DNA from: an uncultured Geobacteraceae bacterium
GTDB taxonomy: Bacteria > Desulfobacterota > Desulfuromonadia > Geobacterales > Pseudopelobacteraceae
Direction of reading: 5' to 3'
Length of the DNA: 44,326 nucleotides
NCBI GenBank assembly: GCA_903875605.1
Contig: CAIQWT010000107.1
Coordinates: forward strand, 1-44,326
Below are positions 37,202 through 43,207 of this stretch, piece after piece. The notes beneath the pieces are model-generated. The model was not told where the DNA came from and made no database searches. It was given only the letters and a program-made list of their open reading frames with translations. The first letter of the stretch is position 1. The number at the start of each line of letters is the position of its first letter. The position numbers and the translations under genes are program-made.

Positions 37202-37627
37202 ATGTTCTGGAGCAAGAATCACATTGTTACACCGGAAGGGCATGAAGTAAGTGTAAAATGTCAGGCAGAAGCTGAGGAACTTTATCGTTCGGGGAAATAT
37301 CACTGTGCCGAAGCGGTGTTGGAGACGGTACGCCGGCATTTTGCCGCTGACCTTCCCGAGTCGGTTATCGGTACGGTAGCGGGCTTTGGCGGAGGCTCCA
37401 GTTCGGGTTGTATCTGTGGAGCGGTTTCTGGAGGCACAGTAGCACTCGGATTGGTGTTGGCGGATAAAAAAGCAACGACACATTTAACTAAAGAGCTGCA
37501 CACCTGGTTCAAGGAAAAGTACAGTGTGACCTGCTGTAAGATTATCCGTCAGAACCACAAGGGAGTCTGTCCGATGCTGACCGGAGAGGTCGCAGGAAAG
37601 GTTGCAGAGATGCTCGGAAGTAAATAG
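37202..37627 (+). CDS. C_GCAxxG_C_C family redox protein
   Basis: 141 aa of the Cys-rich family named for its motif C-GCAxxG-C-C. Cys35 in YHCAEAV, then GCICGAVSGG (Cys70, Cys72), Cys111/112 and Cys123 are at the family positions. The family is thought to be redox or metal active and has Sec-containing members elsewhere; here all positions are Cys. No signal peptide is evident. AGGAG lies 6 nt before the ATG, 9 nt after the RND pump, so it is part of that operon. Confidence 0.85.
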   Translation: MFWSKNHIVTPEGHEVSVKCQAEAEELYRSGKYHCAEAVLETVRRHFAADLPESVIGTVAGFGGGSSSGCICGAVSGGTVALGLVLADKKATTHLTKELHTWFKEKYSVTCCKIIRQNHKGVCPMLTGEVAGKVAEMLGSK

Positions 37628-37648
37628 CGATCATAAAAGTAACCGTAT

Positions 37649-37807
37649 ATGAAAGATTTTCTACTGTTTATTGGAATCCTGATATTCTGGATAGTTCTCC
37701 AAAAATACATTCTCCCGCGCCTCGGTGTGTCTACCTGAATGTCCGACAAATGTGACCTCGGGGACCGGGGTACGAAAAATGAAGTCAAAAAGAACATTAA
37801 GGAATAA
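37649..37807 (+). CDS. Candidate selenoprotein: small membrane protein with in-frame UGA (Sec30)
   Basis: Conventionally this reads as 29 codons ending at TGA 37736-37738. Continuing through that TGA as selenocysteine gives 52 residues ending at TAA 37805-37807. Residues 4-20 form a membrane helix, followed by ILPRLGVST-U-MSDKC: Sec30 and Cys35 form a U-x4-C pair after a membrane anchor. A hairpin at 37751-37774 starts 12 nt after the TGA, with its apical loop 23 nt after it, within the reported range for bacterial SECIS elements. No clear ribosome site; probably coupled to the gene 21 nt upstream. Short length leaves real doubt. Confidence 0.55.
37751..37774 (+). promoter_or_regulatory. SECIS-like hairpin after the in-frame UGA
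   Basis: ACCTCGG (37755-37761) pairs with CCGGGGT (37765-37771), with one G-U, around the triloop GGA; TGT (37751-37753) and ACG (37772-37774) extend it past a bulged G. The loop begins with G and lies 23 nt past the UGA, both fitting the bacterial SECIS consensus (loop 16-37 nt downstream, G in the first two loop positions). Confidence 0.5.
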
Positions 37808-37867: not shown

Positions 37868-38092
37868 ATGAAAGAAGAATTTTACATTGAGCGCCTTGTG
37901 CGTATAGTGGCCGGCACGTTTATCATGATTTCGCTGTTGCTGGCACATTTCCATTCACCCAACTGGCTCTGGTTCACCGGTTTTGTCGGTCTGAACCTGT
38001 TCCAGTCCGGCTTTACTCAGTTTTGTCCCATGTTTAATCTTTTTGCAAAGATGGGAGTGCCACGTTTCCCGAAGAGCTCCTGTTGTAAATGA
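37868..38092 (+). CDS. DUF2892 (YgaP-type) membrane protein
   Basis: 74 aa: two membrane helices (about 11-26 and 31-47) with the family pattern ERLVRIVAGTFIM, then WFTGFVGLNLFQSGFTQFCP, where a Cys follows the second helix. This is the stand-alone form of the C-terminal domain of YgaP-type rhodaneses. It ends with CCK. AAGGAG precedes the ATG by 7 nt, and its TGA overlaps the ATG of the MBL gene, so the two are coupled. Role unknown. Confidence 0.87.
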   Translation: MKEEFYIERLVRIVAGTFIMISLLLAHFHSPNWLWFTGFVGLNLFQSGFTQFCPMFNLFAKMGVPRFPKSSCCK

Positions 38093-38922
38093 ACTATCGA
38101 ATCACCATCCTCTGTGAAAACTCTGTTGGGCCTCTTTCAGGTACACTGGGGGAACATGGCTTCTCTGCATTGATTGAGTATTCGACCGGTGAATCGCTCC
38201 TGTTTGACACCGGTCAGGGCTTAACTCTGCTGCATAACGCCCGGCGTATGAATAAAAATCTTGCTCTGGTCAGGCAGGTTGTTCTTTCTCACGGTCATTA
38301 TGATCACACCGGCGGCCTGAAACCTTTACTTACAGAGTGCGGCCCAAAGCTTGTGTACTGCCATCCTTCTGTTTTCTTACCCCGCTATCGGATTAAGGAT
38401 ACCGGGGAATGTTTTCCGATTGCAATACCTGTTGGGCGTGAGGAGTTGGAATCAGCCGGAGCGACTTTTGATCTTTCAAAGGAGTTCCGTGCTATCGCTC
38501 CAGGGGTATACCTGACCGGAGAAGTACCGCGCGTAACCGAATTTGAAACGGGTGATCAGGGGCTCTACTGCGATTGTAGCGGCCAGGAACTTGATACTAC
38601 GCCTGATGATCAGTCGCTGATTCTGGAAACCGAAAAGGGACTTGTGCTGATACTGGGCTGCTGTCACGCCGGATTGGTAAATACGGTGGAGCATGTTGCC
38701 TATATGACCGGTAGACGTGATATATTTGCTGTAATAGGCGGTACGCACCTCGGGTTCTGTAGTCAGGAACAGATTGGAAAGACGGTCATCGCACTGCGCA
38801 CCCTGGGGGTTAAAAAGCTCGCAGTCAGTCACTGCACAGGTTTCGCCGCTTCAGCGCGCCTGTCCATGGAGTTGCCGAAGGAGTTTCAGGTCGCCATGGT
38901 TGGCTATACGCTGGAAGTTTAA
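38089..38922 (+). CDS. MBL-fold metallohydrolase (RFAP-synthase-like)
   Basis: 277 aa cytosolic metallo-beta-lactamase fold protein. Metal-binding motif HGHYDHTGG at about residues 65-73, a His in CCHAGLVNT, and the late His in SHCTGFAA follow the layout of 7,8-dihydropterin-6-methyl-4-(beta-D-ribofuranosyl)-aminobenzene-5'-phosphate synthase-like proteins. Those are found in many anaerobes with no confirmed reaction for most. The ATG overlaps the DUF2892 stop (ATGA). Last gene of the efflux-associated run. Confidence 0.88.
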   Translation: MNYRITILCENSVGPLSGTLGEHGFSALIEYSTGESLLFDTGQGLTLLHNARRMNKNLALVRQVVLSHGHYDHTGGLKPLLTECGPKLVYCHPSVFLPRYRIKDTGECFPIAIPVGREELESAGATFDLSKEFRAIAPGVYLTGEVPRVTEFETGDQGLYCDCSGQELDTTPDDQSLILETEKGLVLILGCCHAGLVNTVEHVAYMTGRRDIFAVIGGTHLGFCSQEQIGKTVIALRTLGVKKLAVSHCTGFAASARLSMELPKEFQVAMVGYTLEV

Positions 38923-41824: not shown

Positions 41825-43207
41825 ATGAATAAGTTGACGCTTACCTTAGCTGTTATTTTTATGTCTGCAATTACTGCATTTTCTGCGGAACCTGGTGCAC
41901 CTTCTTCTGTGACTATAGCTAAAATATGTACAAACTGTCACAAAGCGGAAGCCAATATCCTGCGTGGTCACCTAGACGGCGTTTCGTTTAAGGCTCAGAC
42001 TATTCAGATGAAGATTGATGGTTACGTCAACCTGATTAGATTTGACGAAGATGAAATTAAAGTCGTCAATGATGAGCGTAAAAACGGCGACGGTGAGCTG
42101 CTGAAAGACAACAAAATCAAGAAGGGCCATGAGATAAAAATTGAATATACCGAAGAGAACGGTGTTAAGACCGCAAAACGTCTTGTTGCCAAACCTCCGG
42201 TTGATGTGCCGAAAGAGATGCTGATCACCACGGCGGAGATTGAGAAACTGGTGGCAAAAGGGCCCGCTAAAGGCGCCTATTTTCTTTATGATTCTCGTCC
42301 CACCGCTCGGTTCATTGAAGGTGCTATACCTACAGCTGTAAGTCTGCCATATCCGGAATTCGACAAAAACTTGGATAAGCTGCCCAAAGACAAGAATGCA
42401 CTGGTTATCTTCTACTGCTCAGGTGTTACCTGCAACATGAGCCCCGGTTCGGCTGACAAGGCGAAGAAGCTTGGTTACACGAATCTTAAGGTTTACAAGG
42501 ACGGAATGCCGGCCTGGTATGAAAAGAGCTATGCCTCACTGACACCGCAATCCATGAAAGAAGCCTGCAAGGATGTGCCATACGTTGTTCTTGATACCCG
42601 CAAACTGAAGATCGTTTCAGCCGGTTTTATACCCGGTGCGGTGCCATTTCCAGTAGCAAAGGCGGCAGCGCAGGCCAAGTCTCTTAATATCACACAGAAA
42701 AAAGCACCTATTGTCGTCTATGATGCTAAAGGTGGAAAAGATGCAGTTGTTGCAGCAAAGGAACTGGTCAAGGCCGGTTATGGCAATGTCAAGGTGCTGA
42801 CCGGAGGCTTTGAAGCCTGGAAAGCAGCTCAGTATGATGTCGCTACAGGCAATCCATCATCAAAAGTCACTTATGTGCCAAAGCCACGTCCTGGAGAGAT
42901 GGATCTTGATGAATTTAATAAGATCCTAGCGACGCATCCTGCTAATGTCTTAATTGTCGATGTTCGTAACGCAACGGAGGCAAAGGCGGGCAGACTGAAG
43001 GAGTCAGTTGTTATACCGCTTAACGATTTCGCTGAACGGGTCGCTGAATTTCCCAAAGATAAGCAGATTGTACTTCATTGTAATACCGGTGTTATTGCTG
43101 AAATGGCATATAACGCATTAAAAAATATGGGAGTCAGCAACGTAAAATTTGTTAACGCCCGTTTCAAGTTTGAGAAAGACGGCAGCTATTCAATAACCAA
43201 AGAATAA
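41825..43207 (+). CDS. extH: ExtH-like multi-rhodanese protein with a haem c motif
   Basis: 460 aa. After a signal (ending FSA), CTNCH at residues 35-39 is a c-type haem-binding motif. Residues 45-120 form a small beta domain resembling ExtJ. Three rhodanese domains follow: the first with catalytic Cys198 (FYCSGVTC), the second lacking the Cys (VYDAKGG near 300), the third with Cys419 (LHCNTGV). A secreted sulfur/selenium-transfer protein that may accept or donate electrons through one haem is inferred. GGAGG precedes the ATG. Lacks an obvious lipobox. Confidence 0.75.
   Translation: MNKLTLTLAVIFMSAITAFSAEPGAPSSVTIAKICTNCHKAEANILRGHLDGVSFKAQTIQMKIDGYVNLIRFDEDEIKVVNDERKNGDGELLKDNKIKKGHEIKIEYTEENGVKTAKRLVAKPPVDVPKEMLITTAEIEKLVAKGPAKGAYFLYDSRPTARFIEGAIPTAVSLPYPEFDKNLDKLPKDKNALVIFYCSGVTCNMSPGSADKAKKLGYTNLKVYKDGMPAWYEKSYASLTPQSMKEACKDVPYVVLDTRKLKIVSAGFIPGAVPFPVAKAAAQAKSLNITQKKAPIVVYDAKGGKDAVVAAKELVKAGYGNVKVLTGGFEAWKAAQYDVATGNPSSKVTYVPKPRPGEMDLDEFNKILATHPANVLIVDVRNATEAKAGRLKESVVIPLNDFAERVAEFPKDKQIVLHCNTGVIAEMAYNALKNMGVSNVKFVNARFKFEKDGSYSITKE

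Follow-up and report, generated by a model that had tools for sequence, protein, structure and literature searches.

The window, as we call the whole stretch of 44,326 nucleotides analysed here, contains a short frame that very probably belongs to an undescribed family of membrane selenoproteins of about 50 residues, with selenocysteine (Sec) inserted at an in-frame UGA by way of a SECIS hairpin. A sequence-only reading had proposed a new small membrane selenoprotein with a Sec-x4-Cys site and such a hairpin; this proposal is strongly supported for the family, whereas selA, selB and selC were not found in the assembly that holds the window.

The frame and its parts

The frame lies at 37649-37807 of the plus strand. 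It opens with an ATG at 37649, runs for 29 codons (37649..37735), reaches a TGA at 37736-37738, continues for a further 22 codons (37739..37804) and closes with a TAA at 37805-37807, the true stop of the read-through frame; these coordinates, claimed earlier from the letters alone, are exact. Its read-through product would be MKDFLLFIGILIFWIVLQKYILPRLGVST-U-MSDKCDLGDRGTKNEVKKNIKE-stop, about 50 residues in length. The N-terminal part holds one predicted membrane helix (residues 2-24) and then the stretch [IV]LP[RK]xG[VI]xT just ahead of the putative Sec (U30), while the tail carries a conserved Cys35 (37751-37753) and becomes Lys-rich toward its end. An AlphaFold2 model of the protein displayed a single helix, H2-24, followed by an unstructured stretch, with a mean pLDDT of 71.6. 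A SECIS-like hairpin occupies 37755..37771 of the same strand, with a stem of 7 bp (37755-37761/37765-37771) and a GGA loop (37762-37764).

Relatives and conservation beyond the UGA

A scan of genome_contigs with patterns close to the window protein revealed 25 loci, titled as Geobacter relatives, Desulfuromonadales or "Deltaproteobacteria"; Oryzomonas japonica and Geomonas silvestris are among the carriers. In the homologue comparison suggested for the 52-residue form, the codon aligned with codon 30 is TGA in 25 of 25 relatives and never one for Cys, and the tail is conserved; judged by this comparison of sequences, the ORF is far beyond chance. Past the TGA, the relatives clearly kept their frame and conserved homologues were clearly present, the opposite of two findings that the sequence-only reading had named as contrary evidence.

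A profile (A1) made from the window and 24 of these 25 loci, L008 being omitted, gave matches at E <=0.01 in 166 of the 395 genomes sampled from the phylum, about five weak matches among them being unconfirmed. An in-frame TGA was seen in every A1 match among the matches listed (to E ~2.5e-7), its place being checked for the rows compared codon by codon. When the weak matches were re-run, ten rows showed no TGA inside the reported match; in G154, G352, G231 and G303 the match stops just short of a TGA, and the six other rows (two from G031 and one each from G052, G055, G114 and G190) are unconfirmed and chance-like. The 140 loci compared in this way include overlapping samples from the same species and hold 116 distinct genes; taking the TGA nearest the expected codon, all 140 have one at the Sec position, 138 at the exact codon and two one codon off. 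With a broader profile of 78 rows (A6), run over 80 genomes of which 73 had no earlier match and 7 a weak one, nine genomes matched, and seven of these have the TGA, four by the count of the tool and three just beyond the end of the match. A match in G114 was rejected as spurious, being part of a 297-residue frame. None of the 21 SelA-negative genomes within the A6 set matched, most of them having been chosen since the first profile missed there.

Two outlying matches were seen as well. One of the four with a TGA by the tool's count, in G091 (L238:1489-1650), is divergent (E 6.9e-4), has Cys-U (PCU) in place of T-U, and is possibly a remote variant of the family. A TGA-bearing member at L095:5001-5147, the sole match in the viral contig collection, adjoins genes that by eye resemble those of HU and DNA polymerase IV, and an ORF that resembles a molybdenum enzyme; this contig may be bacterial in part or in full. 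Plasmid records, searched with two family members, and solved structures gave no match.

The motif of the family can be written T-U-[ML]-x3-C, with the fuller consensus ILP[RK]xGVxT-U-[ML]Sx[SA]C after the membrane helix. Among the 116 genes, Thr precedes U in 107 and Met or Leu follows it in 95, while 97 have the Cys at +5 and nine at +6; in the 78 A6 rows, Cys35 is nearly invariant. The tails of the 116 genes have a median length of 22 residues, with a median Lys/Arg share of 24%. Comparing 34 class members codon position by codon position, we counted 0.30/0.10/0.53 differences per site ahead of the UGA; codons +1 to +4 gave 0.45/0.10/0.47, which means that the second position is still conserved past the UGA. 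Codons +5 to +11, where the hairpin lies, have values of 0.08/0.17/0.31, the first position being least variable, and past the stops the sequences are unrelated, with 0.75 differences per site at every position. An 82-residue ORF does exist on the antisense strand at 37549-37797, and were it the real gene, the frame described here would be open by chance; conservation and the codon-position pattern follow the plus-strand frame, however, and we give this explanation hardly any weight. At the level of the family, UGA is very probably decoded as Sec.

A SECIS-like hairpin

The claim of a hairpin 23 nt past the UGA, with a loop that starts with G, held when the stretch was folded: the hairpin is present, has an energy of -10.6 kcal/mol, and its GGA loop begins 23 nt after the UGA. 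The published bacterial SECIS model (PMC13188914, Fig. 2 legend) has a loop of 3-9 nt with a G in the first two positions, lying 16-37 nt after the UGA, a stem of 4-16 bp and an MFE of -7.5 or lower, and the hairpin of the window agrees with all of this. The same holds for 100 of 114 distinct family sequences, the other 14 missing the thresholds, compared with 27% of synonymous recodings that keep local codon usage (620 of 2280) and 19% of ordinary TGA-ended frames of at least 100 codons from the same loci (272 of 1421), not all of which are genes. Under looser constraints of our own, the shares were 111 of 114 for the family, 57% for the recodings and 38% for the TGA-ended frames. An Rfam scan of the window returned nothing at the gathering score.

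Taken alone, the hairpin of the window is ordinary against dinucleotide shuffles (z -0.04, with 96 of 200 shuffles folding equally well), so that its significance rests on the relatives; only 46 of 2000 synonymous recodings were equally stable. In 46 class members that had not been selected for pairing, covariation analysis gave 48 double-change cells, compared with 10.4 (sd 2.5) after shuffling and 3-13 after sliding, and in a set of 63 members, chosen for fitting the pairing and hence favouring such a result, 120 such cells. Across the 114 sequences, 17 fit a second pairing register with the loop near +17, and 34 fit neither simple register. As RNA pairing constrains this stretch, much of the conservation behind the Cys (DLGDRG) may be conservation of RNA.

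This last point bears on whether the UGA might be a real stop in all members, leaving a 29-residue membrane peptide and a hairpin that acts as a regulatory element or terminator. Such a peptide would already be long enough to span the membrane, the hairpin comes after it, and the low variability of the first codon position shows the conservation of the tail to be partly that of RNA. Conservation beyond the UGA is nevertheless also seen at the protein level, in the Cys at +5 and the near-invariant Cys35, and the second codon position is conserved in +1 to +4, ahead of the stem; the window hairpin is trailed by A-rich sequence with no U run, the codon is TGA and never TAA or TAG in 140 of 140 loci, and within the genus the gene tracks SelA, as described below. 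A plain stop is thus very improbable, and decoding as Sec remains the reading that we follow.

Sec machinery in the genus and the phylum

In the genus of the window, represented by 19 genomes (G000-G018), SelA and SelB are both present in the same 13 and both absent from the same six. A tRNA-Sec scored above the cut-off in eight of the 14 genomes tested, all of them SelA-positive, and in none of the six that are SelA-negative. The small gene was found in 11 of the 13 SelA-positive genomes, G003 and G018 having SelA without it, and in one of the six SelA-negative ones (Fisher p 0.0095, a guide only as the genomes are related); this single exception is the genome of the window itself. G006 (SelA-negative; L181, L217) keeps the genes of the C_GCAxxG_C_C, YgaP-like and MBL proteins with an unrelated ORF where the small gene would be (seen in L181), and in G004 the MBL gene directly follows that of the C_GCAxxG_C_C protein. 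In G010, also SelA-negative, a full-length formate dehydrogenase without TGA persists and the small gene is absent. Regarding SelD, the loci L156-L170, all from one genus, showed that forms without TGA occur even in SelA-positive genomes, the TGA form being found in G001, G005 and G012.

In the phylum sample, SelA was detected in 354 of 395 genomes and, by hand count, in 157 of the 166 that bear the gene (Fisher p 0.007). The nine genomes having the gene and no SelA are G000, G033, G095, G190 (weak and unconfirmed), G196, G243, G298, G325 and G416.

A closer physical link was revealed in two genomes, in which the gene lies on the same strand downstream of a tRNA-Sec confirmed by ARAGORN, at about 190 nt in G009 (C50:42851-43278; L215) and about 145 nt in G016 (C28:267497-267881; L216), with selA within 3 kb of the gene. 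This layout suggests a Sec gene cluster that includes the family gene. It also speaks against the UGA being read as some other amino acid, through a suppressor tRNA or general read-through, an explanation with which the open frame beyond the UGA would agree. In addition, TGA is the true stop of 39 of the 116 family genes, which shows that read-through of UGA is not general, and the 1421 longer frames from the same loci, genes or not, end in TGA too; we therefore consider another amino acid scarcely credible and keep to Sec.

The copy in the window: live or relic

Whether the copy in the window is still decoded is a separate matter. Its assembly has a size of 3.58 Mb in 109 contigs and a completeness of 99.25%. 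The look at selA, selB, selC and selD that the earlier reading had called for came out divided: SelD is present, without TGA, and SelA was not found, nor did SelB or a tRNA-Sec appear above the cut-off in this assembly; for this particular genome, such an absence is one of the findings that the sequence-only reading had named as contrary evidence. A Sec-containing formate dehydrogenase was likewise not found there.

A second peculiarity concerns the ribosome-binding region at 37632..37648 of the plus strand, which is degenerate in the window copy, with an anti-Shine-Dalgarno duplex of -0.4 kcal/mol. This ranks 116th of 116, the median of the family being -8.1. Nine relatives in the same or a similar operon have values of -5.3 kcal/mol or stronger, and six other SelA-negative assemblies with the gene reveal ordinary ones, between -5.4 and -10.0. 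The weak value is not decisive, however: 17-mers drawn at random from the window do as poorly in 31.5% of cases, and the Shine-Dalgarno of the MBL gene in this operon, a gene overlapping its neighbour, reaches only -2.1.

We lean slightly toward the copy in the window being a fresh relic in a family of genuine selenoproteins, its lineage having recently lost selA, selB, selC and the Sec-dependent formate dehydrogenase, so that the gene, its start region being damaged, would now give no more than a peptide of 29 residues. The failure to find the machinery and the Sec-dependent enzyme points this way, as do the weakest Shine-Dalgarno of all, set against the ordinary ones of other SelA-negative assemblies, and five genomes of the same genus that lack both the machinery and the gene. 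On the other side, frame, Cys35 and hairpin are all intact, and with another gene 21 nt upstream, translational coupling could make a Shine-Dalgarno dispensable. The machinery may also simply be missing from a draft of 109 contigs: in G007 and G015, about 4 kb holds selA, selB and tRNA-Sec together, near a TGA-containing formate dehydrogenase, so that one missing piece could explain all absences, though in G012 and G018 the sel genes are on separate contigs. A tree of SelD did not place the window's genome firmly enough to decide between loss and an assembly gap, and as the sel genes sit in different contexts in G007 and G015, comparison of flanks was of no use for a missing sel locus. In composition the window contig is typical of its genome: against the mean of 16 stretches, one from each of 16 further contigs, its two halves gave correlations of 0.951 and 0.956, and the stretches themselves 0.782-0.965 (18 had been fetched, two being too short). 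This leaves gross contamination unsupported, while a contig from a sister species would escape detection.

Gene neighbourhood

The genes of the window are ordered RND efflux, C_GCAxxG_C_C, the small gene, YgaP-like transmembrane protein and MBL. The upstream neighbour at 37202..37627 (plus strand) is indeed a C_GCAxxG_C_C family protein, as had been recognised from the sequence (NCBIfam 67.2 bits, cut-off 47.4), and the same order occurs in G015, G012 and G007. The YgaP-like transmembrane protein (PF11127) follows at 37868..38092 and the MBL-fold metallohydrolase at 38089..38922, its start overlapping the preceding stop (ATGA); further downstream, at 41825..43207, lies a rhodanese protein with three matched domain stretches, all three on the plus strand. 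Genes related to selenite reduction had also been suspected nearby, and a porin at 28942-30402 matches ExtI of selenite/tellurite reduction operons (268.3 bits, cut-off 150).

For the 116 distinct genes, a near same-strand ORF was present upstream in 102 and downstream in 90, of which 72 and 53, respectively, were scanned with Pfam, ORFs that looked like chance or antisense frames having been omitted by eye. Upstream (n=72), the families were C_GCAxxG_C_C (10), glutamyl-tRNA-synthetase type (8), FmdB-type zinc ribbon (PF09723; 7), ArsR regulator (6) and thioredoxin (3). Downstream (n=53), the YgaP-like protein was the commonest immediate neighbour (11), followed by methyltransferase (5) and sigma factor (4), and by rhodanese, epimerase, zinc ribbon and ArsR with three each. 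The FmdB-type genes adjoin the family gene at L103, L113, L121, L142 and other loci. When wider neighbours were clustered for 86 loci, the rhodanese type, to whose cluster the window's protein belongs, was near 13, and CcdA/DsbD-like and TlpA-like types, named by eye, were near five each. No partner gene is universal, and the counts of C_GCAxxG and YgaP come largely from one order. The neighbours are diverse, with genes of glutamyl-tRNA-synthetase type, methyltransferases and sigma factors as common as most of the redox ones, which tells against the function proposed below.

Topology and possible function

Net charges of -0.28 for the N-terminus, +1.83 from the helix to U and +1.24 for the tail were obtained. 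By the positive-inside rule, positive charges mark the cytosolic side of a membrane helix, and those after the helix would therefore place Sec and Cys in the cytosol. In the mechanism that we propose, SelB and tRNA-Sec would insert Sec at the UGA, guided by the SECIS hairpin that overlaps the codons past Cys35; U30 and C35, exposed on the cytosolic face of the membrane as the charges suggest, may form a selenenylsulfide or selenol-thiol pair, and this pair might relay either electrons or sulfane sulfur, with a membrane partner on one side and the cytosol on the other. Candidate partners include the YgaP-like transmembrane protein, rhodanese, a DsbD/CcdA-type protein and thioredoxin. Tentatively, then, the protein may be anchored in the membrane and face the cytosol, serving in selenol/thiol redox or as a sulfur relay.

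Novelty and the absence of Cys forms

The family is absent from Pfam, NCBIfam and the selenoprotein catalogue, and is undescribed. In detail, the window protein has no Pfam match below E 0.1 and none in NCBIfam 20.0 at E up to 1; the 78 rows gave only weak matches in NCBIfam, to models of non-selenoproteins (best E 0.0021), and such weak Pfam and NCBIfam matches of other rows look like chance matches of membrane helices. No such family was seen among the 119 prokaryotic families and subfamilies catalogued in 2026 (PMC13188914, Table 1), and in the portions of the literature that our searches brought up, no paper was recognised as describing this family.

No form with Cys at the Sec position was found among the 140 loci, and no convincing one in 80 further genomes, one phylum having been searched in depth. 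A match in G039 with Cys at that position (E 0.0099) was rejected as chance, as it has no membrane helix. GrdA, the selenoprotein A of glycine reductase, is a soluble protein unrelated to the small membrane family. Like the family, it was long believed to have no Cys homologues, and these have since been reported (PMC12013277). According to the same method paper, Cys homologues now seem to exist for every known selenoprotein; its pipeline retains a candidate only when there is a known Sec homologue or there are Cys homologues, and may miss selenoproteins that lack Cys homologues (PMC12013277).

We consider it possible, at somewhat less than even chances, that the family exists only with Sec, and that lineages losing Sec decoding lose the gene and do not convert it to a Cys form. 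If so, the chemistry of a membrane selenol relay with one helix would demand Sec and nothing else, and the copy in the window would show the gene just after its machinery had been lost. Proteins of about 50 residues for which no Cys form is evident would escape pipelines of this kind as well as gene callers that stop at UGA, and yet the profile found the family in 166 of the 395 genomes. The family adds a new architecture to the bacterial selenoproteins, in which Sec stands at the end of a lone membrane helix, and permits a direct test of whether Sec is truly irreplaceable by Cys.

Comparison with known systems

With the SelA/SelB/SelC-decoded bSECIS selenoproteins, such as FdhA, SelD and C-GCAxxG-C-C, the family has in common the co-occurrence with SelA, the in-frame UGA and, 16-37 nt past it, a hairpin whose loop starts with G. 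It differs from them in its length of about 50 residues, in its single membrane helix and in that no thioredoxin-like fold was recognised, and it has no convincing Cys form and stands outside the 119 catalogued families (PMC13188914). Tso and other lesser-known families (TsoA, TsoX, TsoY and the hypothetical DG, DW and DF) are likewise poorly characterised and have short motifs, but at E 0.1 their NCBIfam models found nothing in our 78 rows, and the motifs given for them differ (PMC13188914, Table 1).

YgaP is a membrane sulfurtransferase that joins a rhodanese and a membrane domain, and stand-alone YgaP-like domains and rhodaneses are encoded near the family gene in part of the phylum. The family itself, in contrast, has one helix and Sec, no rhodanese domain and no Pfam match to PF11127. 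A sulfur or selenium site at the face of the membrane would be plausible for the small protein.
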